Shown here in pieces: positions 1-9,374 of a stretch of DNA of 64,000 bases. The stretch comes from an uncultured Erysipelotrichaceae bacterium. GTDB lineage: Bacteria > Bacillota_I > Bacilli_A > RFN20 > CAG-826. Both the position numbers and the translations under genes were made by a program. Position 1 is the stretch's first letter, and the number at the start of each line of letters is the position of its first letter. Location: the NCBI GenBank assembly GCA_902798595.1, contig CADBXE010000001.1:62001-126000 (forward strand), written 5' to 3'. The notes beneath the pieces were generated by a model, which did no database searches, had not been told where the DNA came from, and saw only the letters and a list, made by a program, of their open reading frames with translations.

Positions 1-422
1 AGATTGTGGGCTTAGATTTAGGCGCGGATGATTATTTGCCAAAACCATTTAATGTTGATGAACTATTAGCCCGTATTAGAGCGCTTCTCCGTCGTAAACC
101 TGCTTATGATGAAGTAGAAACATTATCCTTTGGGGATTTAGAGTTAGACATCAATACCCTAATGCTATCCACGAAAGAAGATAAAGTACCTTTGATGAAC
201 AAAGAAATGCAAATCATGACCTTATTAATGAAGGCTAAAGGTAACGTTGTCTCTTTAGAAACTATTTCTAAGAACGCTTGGGATATTGAATCATATTCCA
301 CGAGTGAAAATGTTTGGGTCTTTATTTCTTATTTAAGAAAGAAGATTGAAAAGATTAAATCTAGTGTAAAGATTAAATCTATCCGTTACCAGGGTTACTA
401 TTTGGAGTGCCAAAATGATTAA
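1..422 (+). CDS. Response regulator, OmpR/PhoB type (5' end outside window)
   Basis: The reading frame is open from the first bases, so the N-terminal part of the receiver domain with the phosphorylated Asp lies outside the window. What remains starts with the end of the receiver: a DDY/LPKPF segment holding the conserved Lys-Pro of strand 5, then helix 5. The C-terminal half fits the winged-helix DNA-binding domain of OmpR-type regulators (strands around FGDLELD, then a recognition region ending in IRYQGYYLE). The stop overlaps the start of the downstream histidine kinase by 8 nt, so the two form a translationally coupled two-component pair. The target is unknown; the surface-protein operon downstream at 1941-5603 is an obvious candidate by proximity, but that is inference. 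Confidence 0.93.
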   Translation, partial: IVGLDLGADDYLPKPFNVDELLARIRALLRRKPAYDEVETLSFGDLELDINTLMLSTKEDKVPLMNKEMQIMTLLMKAKGNVVSLETISKNAWDIESYSTSENVWVFISYLRKKIEKIKSSVKIKSIRYQGYYLECQND

Positions 423-1809
423 GAAACTAAGGCTCCGCTTCATATTAAGCGCTCTTTTCTCTATCTTCTTAGTCTTAGCCGCGACCATCGCGGCCATTAA
501 TGTATCTAACTACGTTCGCGCGGAACGTGATACTGCAACGTTATTGGACCAAGTAGTGGACAGAGAACGTGAATCATTAGTGAAACAAAACTCTTTTGAT
601 TATGTCAATAGAGGTCAACCAGGTGGTCAAGGTGGTTGGGGTCAACCAGGTCAACCAGGTGGTAACCCTGAAGAACAGCCGGAAAAGCCAGATGAGTTTC
701 AATTTAAAGAAAGCGATCCCAACAAAGACGATCCACGTGGTCAATATTTCATCACTGTTTTTAATACTGATAGCAGTGTTGAGTATACATACTTCCATAT
801 GATTTCCGTTGATAAAGAAGCGGATCAACAAATGGCCATCACTGTTTATAACGGCAATAAATTAACAGGCAAAATTGGTAACTATTCTTTTAAGAAAATA
901 ACCAAAACAGACTACGCTAGACAACATTATTATTCCGCAACATGGAACAACACTGGCTATAGGATGGATTATGAAGAAGTGGATGAACAAGTGCCTTTCA
1001 CCGCGACATATGTTGTGTTCGTGGATACCACTGAAGCAAGCAAATCTTTTGGTAACTGGTTAGCGACCTCAGTTATTATTGCTTTGGTGAGCTATACAAT
1101 TATCGCAACGTTAATCATTGTTTCTAGTCACTTTGTTTTTAGAACTAGTGAAGAATCATATAAAAAACAAAAAGCGTTTATCACCAATGCTTCCCATGAG
1201 CTAAAAACGCCATTAACCATTATTAATACCGATGTTGAGATTCTTAAGATGGACCATGGGGAAAACGAATGGACTGATTCAATCGCTGATCAAGTGAGAA
1301 GATTAACAATGATGACTAATCAATTAGTCACTCTTTCTAGACTTGATGAGGCTAATATGCAAAACTACCCATTCACTGTGTTTTCTATTTCCCAATTAGC
1401 AAAAGAATCCGTGGATGCTTTCTTACCAACATATGAGAAATCTGGTTTTAAATTTAAAAGCGATATTGATGAGGATATAGATGTACGTGCGAACAAATAT
1501 TTAATTAATGAATTATTCTATATCTTCTTAGATAATGCGCTTAAGTACGCAACCCCTAAAGGGGAAATCATCTTCAATGTTAAAAAGACTAATAAGAATA
1601 AATTAGAAATTTTATTCTCTAATGATACTGATGATAAAGAAGTTGATATTAATCAACTCTTTGAAAGATTCTATCGTAGCCCTAAGAACAGCAAAAAAGA
1701 AGGCTCCGGTATTGGTTTAAGTATCGCTAAAGAGATTATTGAACTACATAAAGGTAAAGTATCTGCTTCTTTAAGAAACGGTAAGATTTACTTCAATATC
1801 TCATTCTAA
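415..1809 (+). CDS. Sensor histidine kinase
   Basis: Membrane sensor kinase of 464 aa that would phosphorylate the response regulator ending at 422. Residues about 7-30 form the first membrane helix. An extracellular domain follows, to about residue 215, and contains a Gly/Pro/Gln-rich stretch at about residues 64-90. A second membrane helix lies at about 217-240. The HisKA H-box (NASHELKTPL) has the phospho-acceptor at His261. The HATPase domain shows an N-box (LDNALKYA) and a G-box (GSGIGLSIAKEI). The catalytic parts look complete and no HAMP domain is evident. The start codon overlaps the regulator's stop. The Gly/Pro-rich segment resembles one in the surface lipoprotein at 3354-5603. The signal it senses cannot be told from sequence. 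Confidence 0.93.
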   Translation: MIKKLRLRFILSALFSIFLVLAATIAAINVSNYVRAERDTATLLDQVVDRERESLVKQNSFDYVNRGQPGGQGGWGQPGQPGGNPEEQPEKPDEFQFKESDPNKDDPRGQYFITVFNTDSSVEYTYFHMISVDKEADQQMAITVYNGNKLTGKIGNYSFKKITKTDYARQHYYSATWNNTGYRMDYEEVDEQVPFTATYVVFVDTTEASKSFGNWLATSVIIALVSYTIIATLIIVSSHFVFRTSEESYKKQKAFITNASHELKTPLTIINTDVEILKMDHGENEWTDSIADQVRRLTMMTNQLVTLSRLDEANMQNYPFTVFSISQLAKESVDAFLPTYEKSGFKFKSDIDEDIDVRANKYLINELFYIFLDNALKYATPKGEIIFNVKKTNKNKLEILFSNDTDDKEVDINQLFERFYRSPKNSKKEGSGIGLSIAKEIIELHKGKVSASLRNGKIYFNISF

Positions 1810-1866
1810 AAACAAACTTAACAAAAAGATTTTTGATTTTAATTTCGTTTAAGTTTGTTTTTTTAA
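1809..1866 (+). terminator. Intrinsic terminator after the two-component genes
   Basis: An inverted repeat, AAACAAACTT at about 1810-1819 and AAGTTTGTTT at 1851-1860, is followed by a T run to 1864. The loop is long (about 31 nt), which weakens the call slightly. Confidence 0.65.
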
Positions 1867-1875
1867 TATGGAACT

Positions 1876-1932
1876 GACAATAGAGGCAAACTATATACCC
1901 AACATCCCTCTTTTGTCGTAACGGAAAGGAGG
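1876..1932 (+). promoter_or_regulatory. Leader with two competing hairpins before the VTC gene
   Basis: GACAATAGAGG (1876-1886) can pair with CCTCTTTTGTC (1907-1917) with one mismatch. The same CCTCTTT (1907-1913) is also complementary, with one bulge, to the Shine-Dalgarno AAAGGAGG at 1925-1932. The two pairings exclude each other, as in a leader that switches ribosome access. Pairing was judged by eye; no known riboswitch class was recognised. Confidence 0.4.
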
Positions 1933-1940
1933 TCAAATAG

Positions 1941-2675
1941 ATGGACGTTATTACTGTCATGAAACGTTACGAGATGAAGTTTATCCTTACTAAGGAACAG
2001 CTAGTATTCCTTAAGGATGCTTTAAAAGACCATATGGTAGTAGACCAATATGGCAAGACTTCTATCGCTTCCATTTATTACGACACTCCAGATTATCGCC
2101 TTATAAGAAGGTCCATTGAAAAACCCTCTTATAAGGAGAAGATCCGTTTAAGAAGTTATGGTCTGATTAAAAACGGTAAACCCGCTTATTTAGAAATTAA
2201 AAGAAAATGCGAAGGCATTGTTTATAAACGTAGAGTGGAAACTTCAGAAGTTGAAGTCGCTAGATTCTTGAATAAAGAAATTGATGATATTAGTGAAGGT
2301 CAAATCGCTAAAGAGATGGTTTATTTTAGAGACCTCTATCAAACTTTAGAACCTAAAATCATGATTGCCTATGATCGAACATCCTATAAAGAAATAGTGG
2401 GAGATATCCGTTTAACAATTGATGAGAATCCACGTTATAGAGCCTATGACCTTAATCTTCATACCTCCATGGATGGAGCGCCTCTTCTTCCATTAGGAAA
2501 TGCGATTTTAGAAATCAAAGTCCAACAAGAAATGCCTTTATGGTTAACAAGTATTCTTTCCGAAGGAAAGATTTATAAAACCACCTTCTCTAAAGTTGGT
2601 GAAGCATTTAAGAAAGTCATGAACATTAACAATATGATCATAGAAAGGAAGAAGGAACATGAACTCGTTATTTAG
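1941..2675 (+). CDS. VTC-domain protein (polyphosphate polymerase-like)
   Basis: 244 aa, matching the VTC/CYTH-tunnel family (VTC domain, polyphosphate polymerase-like). The signs are an N-terminal RYEMKF strand, YYDTPDY, the basic KIRLRSYG and YLEIKRK strands, YDRTSYK, and a C-terminal LEIKVQ strand. These Lys/Arg/Glu-rich strands line the triphosphate tunnel in characterised members. Eukaryotic Vtc4 makes polyphosphate from ATP; the bacterial substrate is not known. A strong ribosome binding site (AAAGGAGG) sits 8 nt before the ATG. The gene overlaps the DUF4956 gene by 17 nt and is followed by a Cthe_2159-type surface protein. I recall this trio as a recurrent bacterial cluster, pointing to a shared cell-surface or polymer-related role. 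Confidence 0.85.
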   Translation: MDVITVMKRYEMKFILTKEQLVFLKDALKDHMVVDQYGKTSIASIYYDTPDYRLIRRSIEKPSYKEKIRLRSYGLIKNGKPAYLEIKRKCEGIVYKRRVETSEVEVARFLNKEIDDISEGQIAKEMVYFRDLYQTLEPKIMIAYDRTSYKEIVGDIRLTIDENPRYRAYDLNLHTSMDGAPLLPLGNAILEIKVQQEMPLWLTSILSEGKIYKTTFSKVGEAFKKVMNINNMIIERKKEHELVI

Positions 2676-3357
2676 TTTATTAAGCAATGTTGATACAGTG
2701 CTCGTGGCATTAATGGTTACTTTTATTGCTTTAATTATCAGTGTTCTTTTCACTTTCCTGATTTCTTTAAAGATGAGAGGCACTAAAAGTTTCTTTGTGA
2801 CTTCGGCGATTATGCCAATGATTGTAGCGGCGGTTGTCTCTATGGTTTCTATATTCTTAGATCAAGCCACAACTGGAGTGGTACGAATCGCCACAATTGC
2901 GGTAGCTTTAGGCTTAATTAGATTTAGAAGTCAAAACGCTAAAGCAGAAGAACTATTACTCTTATTTAGTGGTGTCGCTATTGGATTGATCTGTGGTTTA
3001 GGCTATGTCGTATTCGCTTTAATCTTCGCTTTAGTAATCGCAGGCTTATACATTTTATTTACTAGCACTAAGTTATTCTCTAATAAGAGATTCAGTGGTG
3101 AAAAGATGTTAAAAATCACCATCCCAGAAACATTAGAATATAATGATGTTTTTGACGATATATTTAATCATTACTTGAAAAGTAATGAACTTTTAGAAGT
3201 TAAAACGACAGCGATGGGATCGTTATTTAGACTTTCCTATCGTGTGGAATTTAAAAACATCGAAGAAGAAAAAGAATTCATTGATGAATTAAGAGTGAAG
3301 AACGGTAATCTTGAGATTTCGGTTCTTCCATATGTTGGTGAGGAGAAATCTTTATGA
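2659..3357 (+). CDS. DUF4956 family membrane protein
   Basis: 232 aa. The N-terminal two thirds are hydrophobic with about four membrane helices (residues about 10-38, 45-68, 72-90 and 98-135). The C-terminal 90 residues are soluble and probably cytoplasmic. A basic RFRSQNAKAEELL motif falls between helices, typical of DUF4956, which commonly accompanies VTC-domain genes. The function is unknown; a membrane partner or transporter for the VTC-domain enzyme is a reasonable inference. It overlaps the VTC gene upstream by 17 nt and the lipoprotein gene downstream by an ATGA junction, so the three should be co-translated. Confidence 0.82.
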   Translation: MNSLFSLLSNVDTVLVALMVTFIALIISVLFTFLISLKMRGTKSFFVTSAIMPMIVAAVVSMVSIFLDQATTGVVRIATIAVALGLIRFRSQNAKAEELLLLFSGVAIGLICGLGYVVFALIFALVIAGLYILFTSTKLFSNKRFSGEKMLKITIPETLEYNDVFDDIFNHYLKSNELLEVKTTAMGSLFRLSYRVEFKNIEEEKEFIDELRVKNGNLEISVLPYVGEEKSL

Positions 3358-5603
3358 ATAAGAAAGTATTTTTCATTCCATTAACCATGTTTCTTGCTCT
3401 ATCTTTAGGAGCATGCAAACAAAAGTCCCATAACAGTAATGAACCAAGTCAAAACCAGAACACATCCTCTGTAAGTGGTGTGTCGCTTAACTATGAAGCA
3501 TTAACCATGTATGTTGGTAAAAGTGCGACATTAACCGCTACTGTTGAACCAGATACCGCTTCTAACAAGGAAGTATCTTGGTCATCAAGTGACACAAGTG
3601 TGGCCACAGTTAAAAACGGCACAATTAATGCGCTTAAAGAAGGTAACTCTAATATTGTAGTGACCACTAAAGAAGGTAACTACACAGCTACCTGTGCTTT
3701 AACTGTGGTAACTGAAGAAGAGGATACTCCATATGTTCCAGATACAAGTGACACAAATATCTACTTTGTGACTACTTCTAATCTAAATGAAGGAACATAT
3801 GATTCTAGTAAGGATGAATATACTTTCTCCGTTAATAAAAACTATAAACAAATCTATGTTAATGTTCCTGATAAAACTATTGTCTTAGAACTCAATGGTG
3901 TGACTATTGAAAATAACGCCAACTCACCTATTTATGTAGAGGACTGCGATACCTTAGAATTATCCGCGAAAAAGAGCACAACTAATAACATAAAAGATAC
4001 ACGTGGTGCCTATGTTACTGATCAACCAGGTCAAGGTAAGGGTGCAATATTTGTTAATAATGGTGACCTTAAACTTAAAGGTACAGGTACATTGAATATC
4101 AATGCTGGATATCTAAATGGTATCCACGGAAAAGATGATGTTAAGGTCCAAAAACAAACATTAAATATTAGCGCAGTTAACCACGCAATTAGAGGCAATG
4201 ATAGTGTAACCATTACTAGTGGTACATTAGATATCTCTTGTGGTGGTGATGCTTTCCATACAGAGAATAGTGATGTCTCCTCTAAAGGTAACCAAAAAGG
4301 TGATGTCACCATTAATGGTGGTAGCATCACTATTAACTCTTGGAGCGACGCTCTTCAAGCCGCTCATGACGCTGTTATTGAAGAGCTTGATAGTGAGAAT
4401 CCAATCAACTTAACAGTTAAAACAAATAAGTATTCTTCCTATAGCGGCTCTACTGTAGAAACAAGTACTTCAAACTTCTATTTAAGAATGAATAATTCTA
4501 CCTACTCTAATGGTGGTTATACATATGCCGCTTTAATTAATTCAGAGTGGTATGCCGCTAGCTATAAAGGCACGCAATCCAGTGATGGTCAAGGTGGTCC
4601 TGGTGGAGGCAGTCATGGTGGCCCAGGTGGATCAAACACATACCATATCTATCAAATTGCTAAACCAAGTGGTGCAACAAGCTTTACTTTATATCGTTTC
4701 CAAGGTAGTAACGTGACGTCATTTAACGCTGATAGTTATAACGCTGTTAGTGATGCAAAAGCCTTTAATGAAGCCTACGATATGGTCACTATCTCAGTGA
4801 GCAGTAAAACAATTAGCTTTGGTAGCTGGGGCAATTACGCTTCAGGTAACTCTAATAGTGCAGATGTGTCCGCAAAAGGCATTAAAGCGGAAAATGAGAT
4901 CTACATTAAATCAGGTGATATCAATATAAAAGCCTATGATGACGCAATCCACGCTAATAATGATGGCATTTTAGAAAATGGTACAACTCCATTAGGTAAC
5001 ATCAATATTTCTGGTGGTAGCTTAGTACTTAACGCCAGTGATGATGGTATCCACGCTGACAATATCGTTAACATCTCCGGTGGTGAGACACATGTTGAAT
5101 CCGCTTATGAAGGTATTGAAGGTAATGTCATCAATATCACAGGTGGTGAAACATATGTCTATGCTACAGACGATGGCATGAACGCCACTAAGGGTAAAAC
5201 TAACGCGGCAATTAATGTCAGCGGTGGCTTCCTTGATGTTGAGGTTCCTACTAACGGCGATACCGATGGTATCGATAGTAATGGCGCATATAATCAAACA
5301 GGTGGTGCCGTCATCGTTAAAGGTCCAGGATCTGCAAGTGGTAATTCTGGTGGTGGTGCAGCGGCTTTAGACACTGATGGTAGCGTTACTTTAAAAGACT
5401 GCACATTAATCATCTTTGGTGGCATGGAGAAGACTCCTAGCACCACAAATGTCACAAAGACAATTTGTTCTTCAACTACGGTTAGTACTGGTTCGCATTC
5501 AGTTTCATTCTCGTCTGGAAGTGCCAGCTACAATACAACACTAAAAACATCTTCAAAGGGATGCTTGGTCTATAGTGCGTTGGGTCAAGCAACATTGAAA
5601 TAG
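3354..5603 (+). CDS. Surface lipoprotein with BIG2 and Cthe_2159-like carbohydrate-binding domain
   Basis: 749 aa. A lipoprotein signal peptide ends in a lipobox (LGAC, Cys21). Residues about 40-122 form a BIG2 Ig-like domain (YVGKSATLTATV, VSWSSSDTSVATV). The rest consists of repeated turns such as NISGG, DDGIHA and DDAIHANND, typical of the right-handed beta-helix Cthe_2159 (DUF4353) family, whose founding member binds polysaccharide. Two blocks of these turns are separated by a Gly/Pro-rich linker near residue 410. The protein is likely anchored outside the membrane and binds a surface or dietary glycan. It is the last gene of the VTC/DUF4956 operon and overlaps the gene before it. The ligand cannot be assigned. 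Confidence 0.85.
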   Translation: MNKKVFFIPLTMFLALSLGACKQKSHNSNEPSQNQNTSSVSGVSLNYEALTMYVGKSATLTATVEPDTASNKEVSWSSSDTSVATVKNGTINALKEGNSNIVVTTKEGNYTATCALTVVTEEEDTPYVPDTSDTNIYFVTTSNLNEGTYDSSKDEYTFSVNKNYKQIYVNVPDKTIVLELNGVTIENNANSPIYVEDCDTLELSAKKSTTNNIKDTRGAYVTDQPGQGKGAIFVNNGDLKLKGTGTLNINAGYLNGIHGKDDVKVQKQTLNISAVNHAIRGNDSVTITSGTLDISCGGDAFHTENSDVSSKGNQKGDVTINGGSITINSWSDALQAAHDAVIEELDSENPINLTVKTNKYSSYSGSTVETSTSNFYLRMNNSTYSNGGYTYAALINSEWYAASYKGTQSSDGQGGPGGGSHGGPGGSNTYHIYQIAKPSGATSFTLYRFQGSNVTSFNADSYNAVSDAKAFNEAYDMVTISVSSKTISFGSWGNYASGNSNSADVSAKGIKAENEIYIKSGDINIKAYDDAIHANNDGILENGTTPLGNINISGGSLVLNASDDGIHADNIVNISGGETHVESAYEGIEGNVINITGGETYVYATDDGMNATKGKTNAAINVSGGFLDVEVPTNGDTDGIDSNGAYNQTGGAVIVKGPGSASGNSGGGAAALDTDGSVTLKDCTLIIFGGMEKTPSTTNVTKTICSSTTVSTGSHSVSFSSGSASYNTTLKTSSKGCLVYSALGQATLK

Positions 5604-5662: not shown

Positions 5663-5933
5663 CCTATAAATATTAAAAGAAAGTGCGGGTGTGAGGGTGT
5701 GCAAGCGGGTGCCTGCACACACCTCTGGGCGCGCTCAAAATATAAAAAGATAAATAATGAATAAAAATGCTTAAAAAATAGACAAAAATACCAAAAATTA
5801 ATAAAAAAACAAAAAATCTATATTAAAAAAGTTAGACTATATCAAAGAAAAATAACTACTATAAAAAATAATTGAAAAATTTTTAAAAAAAGTATTGCAA
5901 TAATTTTTAAATAAGCGCATACTATAATAACCC
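5663..5933 (+). promoter_or_regulatory. Gene-free spacer: GC-rich hairpin, A-rich tract and promoter of the noncoding RNA
   Basis: No ORF of note. A GC-rich hairpin pairs GAGG-GTGTGCA (5693-5703) with TGCACAC-A-CCTC (5714-5725). About 170 nt of A-rich sequence follow, with runs of A spaced like an UP element or bent DNA. TATAAT at 5923-5928 is a clear -10 box. TTGCAA at 5895-5900 lies 22 bp upstream, too far for an ideal -35, but 18 bp from an overlapping CATACT. Transcription would start near 5934. Confidence 0.6.
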
Positions 5934-6034
5934 ACCCGGTAAACGAGTGAGTTAGATAATAAGAATTGATAGATTCTTAATATCTAAAGACCAGATAAAT
6001 CAATCAACGCAGGTATGTAAGTTGCTAAAGCGTT

Positions 6035-6340
6035 TCTGAGATTAAAGAAAAAGTTCAGATTAATGATTGTACTGGCAGGCTAGAGCAATCTAGCCAAGGG
6101 CAAAATCCTCCCTGCTACAGTGGATGCTGAATTAGAGTTTGACAGCGTAAAGCCACCGCCCGACAAGATCGAAGAGGAAGATGAAGGTGAATTACCCATC
6201 GAACACCCCACATTCAGGCTAGAGCAACTTAAAACCTGAAATAAGCTAACTGGTCAGTAATGGCACAGAGAGTGAATGGGCGAAAACTTAGCCTTAAAAA
6301 GTAAGACGATCACCACTAAAACGACGTTGATAGTAAGGCT
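6035..6340 (+). repeat. RNA repeat unit 1
   Basis: Hairpin A: TCTGA 6035-6039 with TCAGA 6055-6059. Hairpin B: outer GTGG 6120-6123 with CCAC 6153-6156, inner GCTG 6126-6129 with CAGC 6143-6146. CGAAGAGG at 6170-6177. A further hairpin TTCAGG/CCTGAA at 6213-6240. A closing AGCCTTA/TAAGGCT pair at 6290-6296 and 6334-6340. Confidence 0.75.
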
Positions 6341-6649
6341 CTGGGATTAAAGCTCCCAGTTAATGATCGCAAAAGGCTGGAAGACCGCAAGGAAATCCAA
6401 ACGGCAAACCTCACTGCTACAGTGGTCGCTGAGTTAGAGTTTAACAGCGTAAAACCACCGCCGGACACAAAGACGAAGAGGGAAAAAGAGAGCGAGTTAG
6501 AGAAAACCTAACCGCAAAGCCTAAATCGCATTACTCAACCTAACGTGCGATGATAGCGAGAGAACCCAGATGGAAATCTCGTGAAGAAAGGGCCTAGAGA
6601 GCTTAAGACTAGATAAGTCAACCACCTCCATTAACTGATTATGGAGCCT
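6341..6649 (+). repeat. RNA repeat unit 2
   Basis: Hairpin A: CTGGG 6341-6345 with CCCAG 6355-6359 around ATTAAAG. Hairpin B: GTGG 6422-6425 with CCAC 6455-6458, and GCTG 6428-6431 with CAGC 6445-6448. CGAAGAGG at about 6474-6481. GTTAG/CTAAC at 6496-6512 and ATCGCA/TGCGAT at 6525-6551. Confidence 0.75.
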
Positions 6650-6938
6650 CGAAGGATTAAAGAACCATCGTTAACTGGTTGCGCTAGCAAAGAATCATCA
6701 GGAATGGTGATTATCGGTACGATCCCACCTAACTAGCAATAGTTACCGGCATCTGCGTTAAAGCTTGGCAGAGTAAACCCGGCACCGGACATGACGAAGA
6801 GGATAACAGTTCCAAAGCCAATGACTTGGAAAAGCTGGCCATTAATGCGCTACTCAGTTCAAAACGCATTTTAACAAGAAGCATCACCAGCGAATGCAGC
6901 TTAACTTGGGTATCTGGTAACAGGTACAACGGTTCAAA
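6650..6938 (+). repeat. RNA repeat unit 3
   Basis: Hairpin A: CGAAGG 6650-6655 with CCATCG 6665-6670 around ATTAAAG. Hairpin B with compensatory changes: CCGG 6746-6749 with CCGG 6779-6782, and TCTG 6752-6755 with CAGA 6769-6772. CGAAGAGG at about 6795-6802. TTCCAA/TTGGAA at 6810-6831 and AATGCG/CGCATT at 6844-6870. The most divergent of the three units. Confidence 0.7.
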
Positions 6939-6975
6939 AGAAGGAAGCGGAAATTGTCCGCTTCTTTCTTTTTGT
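6939..6975 (+). terminator. Strong intrinsic terminator of the noncoding RNA
   Basis: A 13-bp stem (6939-6951 with 6957-6969, core GAAGCGGA/TCCGCTTC) with a 5-nt loop and a T-rich tail. It ends about 20 nt before the next start codon. Confidence 0.92.
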
Positions 6976-6995
6976 TTTTGTATTAAACTATTGGT

Positions 6996-7820
6996 ATGTA
7001 CGATCCACATTCAACAAGATATAAATATCCAGATTTTACTGACCAACATTATTTAGTGGTTAAAAAGAATAATGGGGCAATTTTTGATGAGAATTACCCA
7101 TATATTGATAATTCCAAAGGCTTTAGATTTAAAAAATGGTGGGTACGTGTACTATTAAACTTAATTGTTTTCCCAATTTGTCCTATTTACATGGGACTAA
7201 GAATTAAAGGTAGAAAGAACTTAAAAATATATAAGAATGAACTATCTAATGGAGCGATAACAGTCTCTAATCATATTCATATGTGGGACTATATCGCTAT
7301 TATGAAGGCTATTAGACCAAGAAAACCTAGAGTATTAGTGTGGGCCCCTAATGTTAGAGGTGAAAGTGGTACTTTAGTGAGATTAGTAGGGGGTATCCCT
7401 ATCCCTGATGGTAATTTAGGTGGTAAAGTTGCTTGTAATAAAGCAGTGGAACAATATTTAAATGATGGAGGATTCCTACAAATATACGCTGAAGGCAGTA
7501 TGTGGGAATGTTATCCATATATTAGACCATTCCATACGGGCGCTATGTCGTTAGCCTGTCGTCTTAATAAACCAATCTTACCAATTGGCTTTTCTTTTAG
7601 AAAACCAAGTTGGATAAGAAAACATATCTTTAAACAAGAAGTAGCAATCACGCTTACTATTGGCAAACTATTATTTAGAGATGATGGTTTACCAGAAGGT
7701 GAGCAGCGCATTGATTTAACTAAACGTGTCCATCGTGAAGTATGCTTACTCGCCGAGGTTGATCCTAAAGATAATATTTACGAGCCAATATTTAATAACT
7801 CGAAAAGAATAGAAAAATAA
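6996..7820 (+). CDS. 1-acylglycerol-3-phosphate acyltransferase family (PlsC-like)
   Basis: 274 aa, membrane-associated acyltransferase. The catalytic H-X4-D motif is seen as NHIHMWD (about residue 90). The substrate-binding block is YAEGSMW (about residue 168), followed by the conserved PILPIGF. A short hydrophobic segment (VLLNLIVFPICPIYMGL) precedes the catalytic site, as in PlsC. Expected reaction: transfer of an acyl chain to lysophosphatidic acid in membrane lipid synthesis, although the family includes other acceptors. The start lies just past the noncoding RNA terminator and no clear ribosome binding site is present, so the first ATG is accepted with some doubt. The downstream gene is convergent, with a shared terminator. 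Confidence 0.85.
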   Translation: MYDPHSTRYKYPDFTDQHYLVVKKNNGAIFDENYPYIDNSKGFRFKKWWVRVLLNLIVFPICPIYMGLRIKGRKNLKIYKNELSNGAITVSNHIHMWDYIAIMKAIRPRKPRVLVWAPNVRGESGTLVRLVGGIPIPDGNLGGKVACNKAVEQYLNDGGFLQIYAEGSMWECYPYIRPFHTGAMSLACRLNKPILPIGFSFRKPSWIRKHIFKQEVAITLTIGKLLFRDDGLPEGEQRIDLTKRVHREVCLLAEVDPKDNIYEPIFNNSKRIEK

Positions 7821-8240: not shown

Positions 8241-8558
8241 ATGATTGGTTTATATATCGCTTTAGGCATCTTAGGCTTTATCTTTTATCCACTTCTTAAT
8301 TTAACTAGTCATATATTCGCTCATGAAAGTTTAAATAAAACATCAGCGTATAATTCCATTAAGAATAGTGATAACAAAATACTTATCATGCACGGTGATA
8401 AAGATCATGTTATTCCATATACCATATCTAAGAAATTAGCGGACACCTACCCTCATAAAATAAGATATGAAGTATTTAAAAACGCTGACCATGGTGCATC
8501 AGCGTTAACGGACTATAATCGTTATCAAAAAGTAGTGGAAGAGTTTTTAAAAGACTAA
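8241..8558 (+). CDS. Truncated alpha/beta-hydrolase-like protein (probable remnant)
   Basis: 105 aa. An N-terminal membrane helix (residues 2-24) leads directly into the C-terminal part of an alpha/beta hydrolase. That part has the acid-residue strand (ILIMHGDKDHVIP) and the catalytic-His loop (NADHGA), ending in a final helix. The nucleophile elbow (G-x-S-x-G) and the central sheet are missing, so it should not be catalytically competent. The simplest reading is an internal deletion that fused the N-terminal anchor to the C-terminal end of a membrane-anchored hydrolase of about 300 aa. A TATATT box lies 6 nt before the ATG, so it may still be transcribed. It converges on hepT, with only a few bases overlapping. 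Confidence 0.55.
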   Translation: MIGLYIALGILGFIFYPLLNLTSHIFAHESLNKTSAYNSIKNSDNKILIMHGDKDHVIPYTISKKLADTYPHKIRYEVFKNADHGASALTDYNRYQKVVEEFLKD

Positions 8559-8908
8559 TTGATAGGGCCGAACATTTCGTCACGTATTGCCATGATTTTT
8601 TCTTTTAATTCAGGCAAGTCGTTCATTGCGGTTTTATATATTTGTGCAGCGTCAACCTTGTTATAAATGTGTACAATGAGGATTCTCATGTCTCTCGCTT
8701 CGTCCCATGGTAAATCTGGATATTTGTCAGCTAAATGCTTTTCTAGCTTAGTCATTTGTTCACCAACTTGTACAATTGAGAAACAAGTAGCTCTTACTAA
8801 TAAATCAGATTCGGCGAATTGTTCTAACGTTTTGCCTTTTGTATCAGACAACACAGTATCGATATGTTTTAATAGGAAACGAATCCTATCTTTGATTGAA
8901 TTACCCAT
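8555..8908 (-). CDS. hepT: HepT-like HEPN ribonuclease toxin
   Basis: 117 aa, all-helical HEPN protein of the HepT/DUF86 family. It carries the diagnostic RX4HXY motif as R75-ILIV-H80-I-Y82. In characterised pairs this motif forms the RNase site and the Tyr is the residue AMPylated by the MntA antitoxin. It lies downstream of, and overlaps by 8 nt, the MntA-like gene at 8901-9374, the usual antitoxin-first order. The expected role is a type VII toxin that cleaves RNA when MntA is lost. The motif residues are all present, so it looks active. Confidence 0.88.
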   Translation of the reverse strand: MGNSIKDRIRFLLKHIDTVLSDTKGKTLEQFAESDLLVRATCFSIVQVGEQMTKLEKHLADKYPDLPWDEARDMRILIVHIYNKVDAAQIYKTAMNDLPELKEKIMAIRDEMFGPIN

Positions 8909-9374
8909 AAATTTTTATTCCTTCTGTAAGTAGATTTTCTAAAAACGAATCATTATCGCCAATTTGTCTGTGTGTTTGAAGATCAACTTTTTTAAATAGC
9001 AGTTTTTCTAAATCGCTAGCCATTTTATAAAAACGTAATCCCATAGCAGGGCAAACCACTAAAATATCAACATCACTTTCTCCAGTAGCTTCGCCCCTTG
9101 CGTAACTACCATACAAATAGGCGCATTTTACCTCTGGATATTTTGAAAACACGTAAGCACAGTAAGACTTAATTAACTTGACGCTTAAAATATAGCGTTT
9201 TCCTTCAACATCGCAAACCTCATTCAGTTGGGTTAATAAGTTATTATATGTTTCATTCTTCAAACTCGTTTCTTCGTATGTTTGATAAGTACGACGTGAA
9301 ACGCCACATATTTTCGCCATCTGTGTTTGGGTTAAACCAAGTTGTTTTCTTTTTAGCCTTAATTCGTTTTCCAT
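8901..9374 (-). CDS. mntA: MntA-like nucleotidyltransferase antitoxin with N-terminal HTH
   Basis: 157 aa. Residues 1-40 form an XRE-type helix-turn-helix (LGLTQTQMAKICGVSRRTYQ). Residues about 65-157 form a minimal nucleotidyltransferase with the GSX10DXD signature (G89-S90, D101-D103). Known MntA proteins neutralise HepT by AMPylation; here the fused HTH should also give autoregulation. The upstream region fits: two TTGCGCA direct repeats overlap the promoter. TATAAT ends 6 nt before the ATG, so the transcript is probably leaderless. hepT follows with an 8-nt overlap. Confidence 0.85.
   Translation of the reverse strand: MENELRLKRKQLGLTQTQMAKICGVSRRTYQTYEETSLKNETYNNLLTQLNEVCDVEGKRYILSVKLIKSYCAYVFSKYPEVKCAYLYGSYARGEATGESDVDILVVCPAMGLRFYKMASDLEKLLFKKVDLQTHRQIGDNDSFLENLLTEGIKIYG

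Follow-up and report, generated by a model that had tools for sequence, protein, structure and literature searches.

A kilobase non-coding RNA from a rumen bacterium, probably a chain of three pseudoknotted domains that each contain a cow-rumen-1 hairpin

Several large, ornate non-coding RNAs of unclear function have been described in bacteria, among them OLE, ROOL and GOLLD, and ROOL is also found in rumen bacteria. These RNAs are homo-oligomers of one chain, with 2, 8 or 14 copies; ROOL and GOLLD form 8- and 14-mers (PMC12286853). The raiA motif (ModT) of Bacillota, a structured RNA that stands alone, is instead a monomer. At the other end of the size range, Rfam holds cow-rumen-1 (RF02946) as a free-standing hairpin of 61 nt. 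It was reportedly first described by Weinberg et al. in 2017; neither its name nor its accession is mentioned in the literature that we searched apart from that description. Here we describe an intergenic RNA gene of about 1,040 nt (5930-6975, + strand) in a 64,000-nt stretch of rumen-bacterium DNA, hereafter the window. When the Rfam models of ROOL, GOLLD, OLE and raiA were run against this region, none matched even at E values up to 5, and the window RNA shows no sequence or structure match to the first three; the first-pass annotation was thus right to set it apart from OLE, ROOL and GOLLD. It also differs from these RNAs in repeating a domain within one chain, and from raiA, which is not a multi-domain array.

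The region shows the marks of an independent transcription unit. A candidate promoter lies at 5895-5923 (+), with a -35 hexamer TTGCAA (5895-5900), a 17-nt spacer and a -10 hexamer CATACT (5918-5923), and transcription would start at about 5930. Since a generic promoter scan did not list this site, the assignment rests on conservation: across 38 aligned relatives, TTG at 5895-5897 and T at 5923 are present in all 38 and A at 5919 in 37, which gives a conserved -10 element NATANT 17 nt after the -35 hexamer. The clean -10 box originally read as TATAAT at 5923-5928 is therefore probably wrong, the better candidate being the conserved one five bases upstream. The terminator stem of 13 bp, in contrast, is present in the window sequence as claimed, as the core of an intrinsic terminator with a T run (6936-6978, +); in 38 of 38 relatives a T run follows the last module by 141-182 nt, nearly always immediately preceded by a hairpin. 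Near the 5' end, an 8-bp leader hairpin with a conserved GATA loop (5960-5979, +) contains the covarying pairs 5963:5976 and 5966:5973. No conserved reading frame was found in the relatives, whose longest ATG ORF has a median length of 44 aa against 45 aa in shuffled sequence. A protein-coding reading was rejected on this comparison, in agreement with the first impression that the region holds no protein gene. Folding-energy z scores of single sequences (-1.6, -1.0 and -0.5) were not significant and, being weak, were not used as evidence. Together, the comparisons show the locus to be a separate non-coding gene with a predicted promoter and terminator of its own. A cis-regulatory leader is highly improbable. 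At some loci a gene follows closely on the same strand, as in the window with an acyltransferase gene at 6996, but the terminator precedes that gene, and across genera the downstream genes vary and often lie on the other strand; a riboswitch or other cis-regulator would be marked by a conserved gene following it with no terminator in between, and this is not seen. The RNA would thus very likely act in trans.

Inside the RNA, three units of about 300 nt each contain a cow-rumen-1 module, the hairpin B of the first-pass annotation, on the + strand: 6117-6177 (78.6 bits, E 4.9e-17), 6419-6481 (77.8 bits) and 6743-6802 (71.8 bits). By covariance-model score all three belong to RF02946, far above its gathering cut-off of 53.4 bits (model length 61 nt). 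No other Rfam family exceeded its threshold in 5930-6975, a permissive search included. The Rfam entry covers only about a fifth of the whole RNA. Since a significant Rfam match, which the first-pass annotation had itself named as a refutation, is present over 61 nt of each unit, the claim of a new large RNA class cannot be kept in its unqualified form, although a large, structured, non-coding RNA it is. Our search of Rfam, and of literature other than the original cow-rumen-1 description, turned up neither the RNA of kilobase size nor the domains, pseudoknots and length rule described below; with the module known to Rfam and the whole not found, we regard it as a new large modular RNA containing a known motif. 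Sequence and outer stem of the modules are those of cow-rumen-1, but what Rfam treats as a free-standing hairpin is here one element of a pseudoknotted domain of about 300 nt within an RNA of about 1 kb.

Read directly, the hairpins have the 13-nt loop and the 2-nt and 6-nt internal loops that had been reported, together with the pairing-preserving stem changes (GTGG/CCAC of units 1 and 2 is replaced by CCGG/CCGG in unit 3; GCTG/CAGC against TCTG/CAGA). Of the stems in the Rfam consensus, the outer and the middle one (6120-6123/6153-6156 and 6126-6129/6143-6146) are conserved and paired in 98-100% of sequences. The innermost 3-bp stem with its UAGA loop is compatible with the sequences, with a best covariation rank of 7e-3 and no strong double-change support. 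In addition, a helix would close each module: UCCUC 6106-6110 with GAGGA 6174-6178 in domain 1 (+) and 6409-6412/6478-6481 in domain 2 (+), both near-invariant, and 6722-6725/6801-6804 in domain 3 (+), where covariation is strong (6722:6804, rank 1.8e-5; 6723:6803, rank 4.7e-5).

A covariance-model search of related genomes yielded 38 complete three-unit relatives with a median length of about 1,045 nt, which are 61-91% identical to the window RNA, have the same promoter, terminator and domain plan, and contain no conserved ORF. One relative was deposited as 'uncultured Bacillales bacterium' SRR12081303_bin.29, and locus L059 is identical to L288. Covariation was scored by an APC-corrected G-test and judged against a null made by shuffling substitutions on the tree, a re-implementation of the idea behind R-scape rather than R-scape itself. 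Because an alignment of mixed units (A1) misaligned the variable hairpins, the structure was taken from whole-RNA alignments. Without any assumed structure, 7 of 571,915 column pairs covaried at E<0.05, all of them 100% Watson-Crick or G-U and two of them the leader-hairpin pairs given above. The RNAalifold consensus comprised 214 pairs, 82 of which fell in the top 0.1% of covariation, compared with 0-3 in shuffled alignments, and its covariation term was 176 as against 58-90 after shuffling; this comparison matters because alifold itself picks pairs by covariation. The compensatory changes noticed within the single sequence are matched by covariation among the relatives, which show no coding signal.

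These alignments support three domains, in agreement with the three repeats of about 300 nt first seen in the 1.04-kb sequence: the modules begin at 6117, 6419 and 6743, at spacings of 302 and 324, and the stem around ATTAAAG that had been noted recurs in every unit. Domain 1 (5985-6283, +), assigned to type 1 by profile, has covarying helices at 5989-5994/6072-6076, 5999-6006/6064-6070 and 6213-6218/6235-6240. In domain 2 (type 2; 6284-6598, +) the first strand, 6284-6289, would pair back to domain 1, and the consensus structure places helices (+) at 6290-6295/6373-6378, 6305-6312/6364-6370, 6341-6346/6354-6359, 6380-6386/6391-6397, 6525-6531/6545-6551 and 6556-6561/6577-6582. Domain 3 (type 3, the 3' cap; 6599-6905, +) likewise opens with a strand, 6599-6604, predicted to pair back to domain 2; its consensus helices (+) are 6617-6624/6676-6682, 6693-6700/6705-6712, 6730-6735/6740-6745, 6810-6817/6825-6831, 6834-6838/6887-6891 and 6843-6849/6865-6870.

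We searched for pseudoknots as stacked covariation outside the nested structure, and the same two contacts recurred at equivalent places of the units. In the first, PK-A, the cow-rumen-1 loop of domain 1 (6135-6140, GAGUUU) is matched to AAACUU at 6284-6289, where domain 2 starts (span 6135-6289, +), with double changes at 6137:6287 (A-U/G-C) and 6138:6286 (C-G/U-A), 100% pairing and ranks of 4e-5 and 1e-4 among all column pairs. The loop of domain 2, 6437-6442, is matched to 6599-6604 at the start of domain 3 (6437-6604, +; 6439:6602, rank 5e-5; 6440:6601, rank 1.2e-3), and that of domain 3, 6761-6765 (AAGCU), to 6898-6902 (AGCUU) in the 3' tail (6761-6902, +; 6761:6902, rank 1.5e-4; 6764:6899, rank 2.1e-4). 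With its own downstream strand, PK-A is fully paired (5/5 pairs) in 100%, 92% and 97% of the RNAs, as opposed to 29-68% when strands are swapped, and none of 2,000 between-genome shuffles, which ignore relatedness, reached the observed Watson-Crick count. PK-A and the innermost three Rfam pairs compete for the same loop bases, and PK-A is the better supported (rank 4e-5). The comparative evidence shows pairing of each cow-rumen-1 loop with the opening strand of the next domain or, for domain 3, with the 3' tail, a contact given neither by Rfam nor by the first-pass annotation. In the second contact, PK-B, a strand of AGUUGA type pairs with the tail-hairpin loop. In domain 1 this loop belongs to hairpin 6213-6240, and 6020-6026 (AGUUGCU) pairs with its bases 6223-6229 (AGCAACU; span 6020-6229, +; covarying pairs 6024:6225, 6025:6224 and 6026:6223), and in domain 3 it pairs 6633-6637 (AACUG) with 6855-6859 (CAGUU; span 6633-6859, +), where 6634:6858 and 6635:6857 covary. 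The domain 2 equivalent, 6326-6330 (GUUGA) with 6535-6539 (UCAAC; 6326-6539, +), is nearly invariant and putative, by alignment equivalence, covariation being seen in units 1 and 3. On this comparative evidence the RNA very probably folds into three homologous, pseudoknotted domains of about 300 nt linked in a chain.

Rich pseudoknotting, size and an ornate fold recall ROOL and GOLLD, and the long-range pairs could in principle be kissing loops between molecules of a homo-oligomeric, RNA-only assembly or nanocage, as for ROOL, GOLLD or OLE. We consider this unlikely: Rfam models of those three RNAs do not match, the covarying pairs are explicable within one molecule, and a large RNA need not oligomerise, as the monomeric raiA illustrates.

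The domains are not interchangeable. Classification by profile placed 116 of the 116 units of three-unit arrays correctly by position. The three five-unit arrays, two complete and one beginning at a contig end, all read 1-2-1-2-3, and PK-A matches are found at their domain junctions too, including a changed pair, GAUU/AAUC, in L298. None of the complete arrays fetched had two or four units. At five further loci (L301, L306, L314, L326 and L328) there is a single diverged module. L301 and L326 retain only the 3' half of a unit; in L306, L314 and L328 the strands of PK-B and PK-A stand at the expected places, and in L314 the PK-A pairing has changed from GGACU/AGUCC to GAGCU/AGCUC. At L328, a TTGCAT-17-TATAGT promoter and a terminator would delimit an RNA of roughly 330 nt. 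The simplest rule for unit order appears to be [1-2]n-3; the single-unit RNAs, too diverged for a type 3 call by profile, have an extra hairpin and tail in common with type 3. The single-unit loci make up a second, short RNA class. A conserved protein of about 110 aa, without a Pfam match, is encoded convergently just downstream of some of them, on the minus strand of the oriented locus (L301, 4891-5209; L306, 5372-5597; L328, 5464-5803), and in L306 and L326 the RNA adjoins a comFA-like helicase gene, with secA- and prfB-like genes beyond, as read from the sequence. Several genomes hold multiple, mutually diverged copies: L333 (G203), L327 (G183) and L312/L313 (G123). In G203 a three-unit and a five-unit array lie about 1.1 kb apart, and G183 has two three-unit RNAs besides the single-unit type.

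These arrays bear directly on the pseudo-trimeric assembly that the first-pass annotation had suggested. Although three domains are found at 38 complete loci, a closed pseudo-trimeric particle is very unlikely, given the natural five-domain and single-domain versions, the distinct conserved types of the three domains, and PK-A contacts that link successive domains and end in the 3' tail, with no ring closure. Nothing in this pattern points to a closed three-fold ring; an extendable rod with a 3' cap better accounts for the rule [1-2]n-3, for versions with one, three and five domains and for the directional PK-A contacts. The repetition might reflect duplication drift, against which type-specific conservation argues. 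A decoy or sponge, in which each domain sequesters a regulatory protein or an anti-Shine-Dalgarno-like target and domain number sets capacity, would account for the repeated conserved unpaired sequence, for a CCUCCCU kept in all domain types despite differing pairing, and for domain numbers of 1, 3 and 5. It is improbable nonetheless, as known protein sponges, CsrB among them, are far smaller and less structured than these domains, and a sponge would have no need of a fixed type order.

RF02946 is present in 44 of the 224 genomes searched from the window's family, in 10 of 35 genera, and this patchy distribution implies that the RNA is not essential to the lineage. It was absent from 55 other genomes of the order and, outside the family, from a phylum sample of 295 genomes, and a broader covariance model (R1) run over 346 genomes of the class found nothing outside the family. 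Three extra weak matches of R1 (G115, G214 and G239) were rejected, as they resemble protein-coding sequence. In places the RNA tree mixes genera; for example, a g41 RNA falls within a g48 clade with strong support. Neighbouring genes are mostly the same within the window's genus and unrelated across genera, where no conserved neighbour was found; genomes without the RNA do not keep its flanking genes together. In the window, the upstream group at 415-5603 (+), by Pfam a histidine kinase, a VTC-domain protein, a DUF4956 protein and a Cthe_2159-like carbohydrate-binding protein, stays together in most members of the genus. Farther downstream lie a HEPN/MNT toxin-antitoxin pair by Pfam, namely a HepT-like ribonuclease with a helix-turn-helix nucleotidyltransferase (8555-9374, -), and a RhuM-family protein (PF13310; 12029-12904, +). 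A viral or plasmid origin is not supported, as no trace was seen in phage and plasmid records searched with blastn or, using two specific patterns, in the viral contigs of IMG/VR (an earlier, looser pattern had given mostly chance matches). A catalytic or mobile RNA spread by transfer, whether ribozyme, intron-like element or retroelement remnant, could explain the patchy distribution, the mixing of genera in the tree and the multiple copies in G183, G203 and G123. We give this reading only a slight chance, with no associated protein, no conserved insertion context and no match in phage, plasmid or viral contigs.

Our best overall explanation, in which we place about even confidence, is a chained-domain RNA serving as a linear multivalent scaffold. 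A stand-alone non-coding gene would produce an RNA of about 1,040 nt with three homologous pseudoknotted domains of about 300 nt. In each domain, PK-B would hold together a P1-P4 junction, the variable side hairpin P5, the cow-rumen-1 hairpin P6 with its closing CCUC/GAGG helix, and a tail hairpin. PK-A would staple the domains head to tail into what may be a linear rod in three dimensions, with types 1 and 2 as its extendable pair and type 3 as the cap at the 3' end. Acting in trans, the chain may offer three copies of one conserved unpaired surface to a single partner, which could be a protein, the ribosome or another RNA; the candidate contact surface lies around CCUCCCU, UUAGAG and GCCGGACA, kept in all domain types. 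The assignment of function as a multivalent scaffold is tentative. The RNA may, with a probability that we put near one half, be a natural counterpart, in RNA, of a repeat protein: a single chain of homologous pseudoknotted domains joined head to tail by loop pairings specific to each domain, with lengths [1-2]n-3 and free single-domain relatives, forming a genetically tunable multivalent particle. At about 1,040 nt, and longer in the five-domain relatives, it exceeds the sizes quoted for OLE, ROOL and GOLLD. What RF02946 describes as a hairpin of 61 nt is redefined as part of a kilobase RNA, and the pairing of the cow-rumen-1 hairpin loop is corrected to PK-A. Versions with one, three and five domains occur naturally and allow direct tests of multivalency and of RNA domain assembly.
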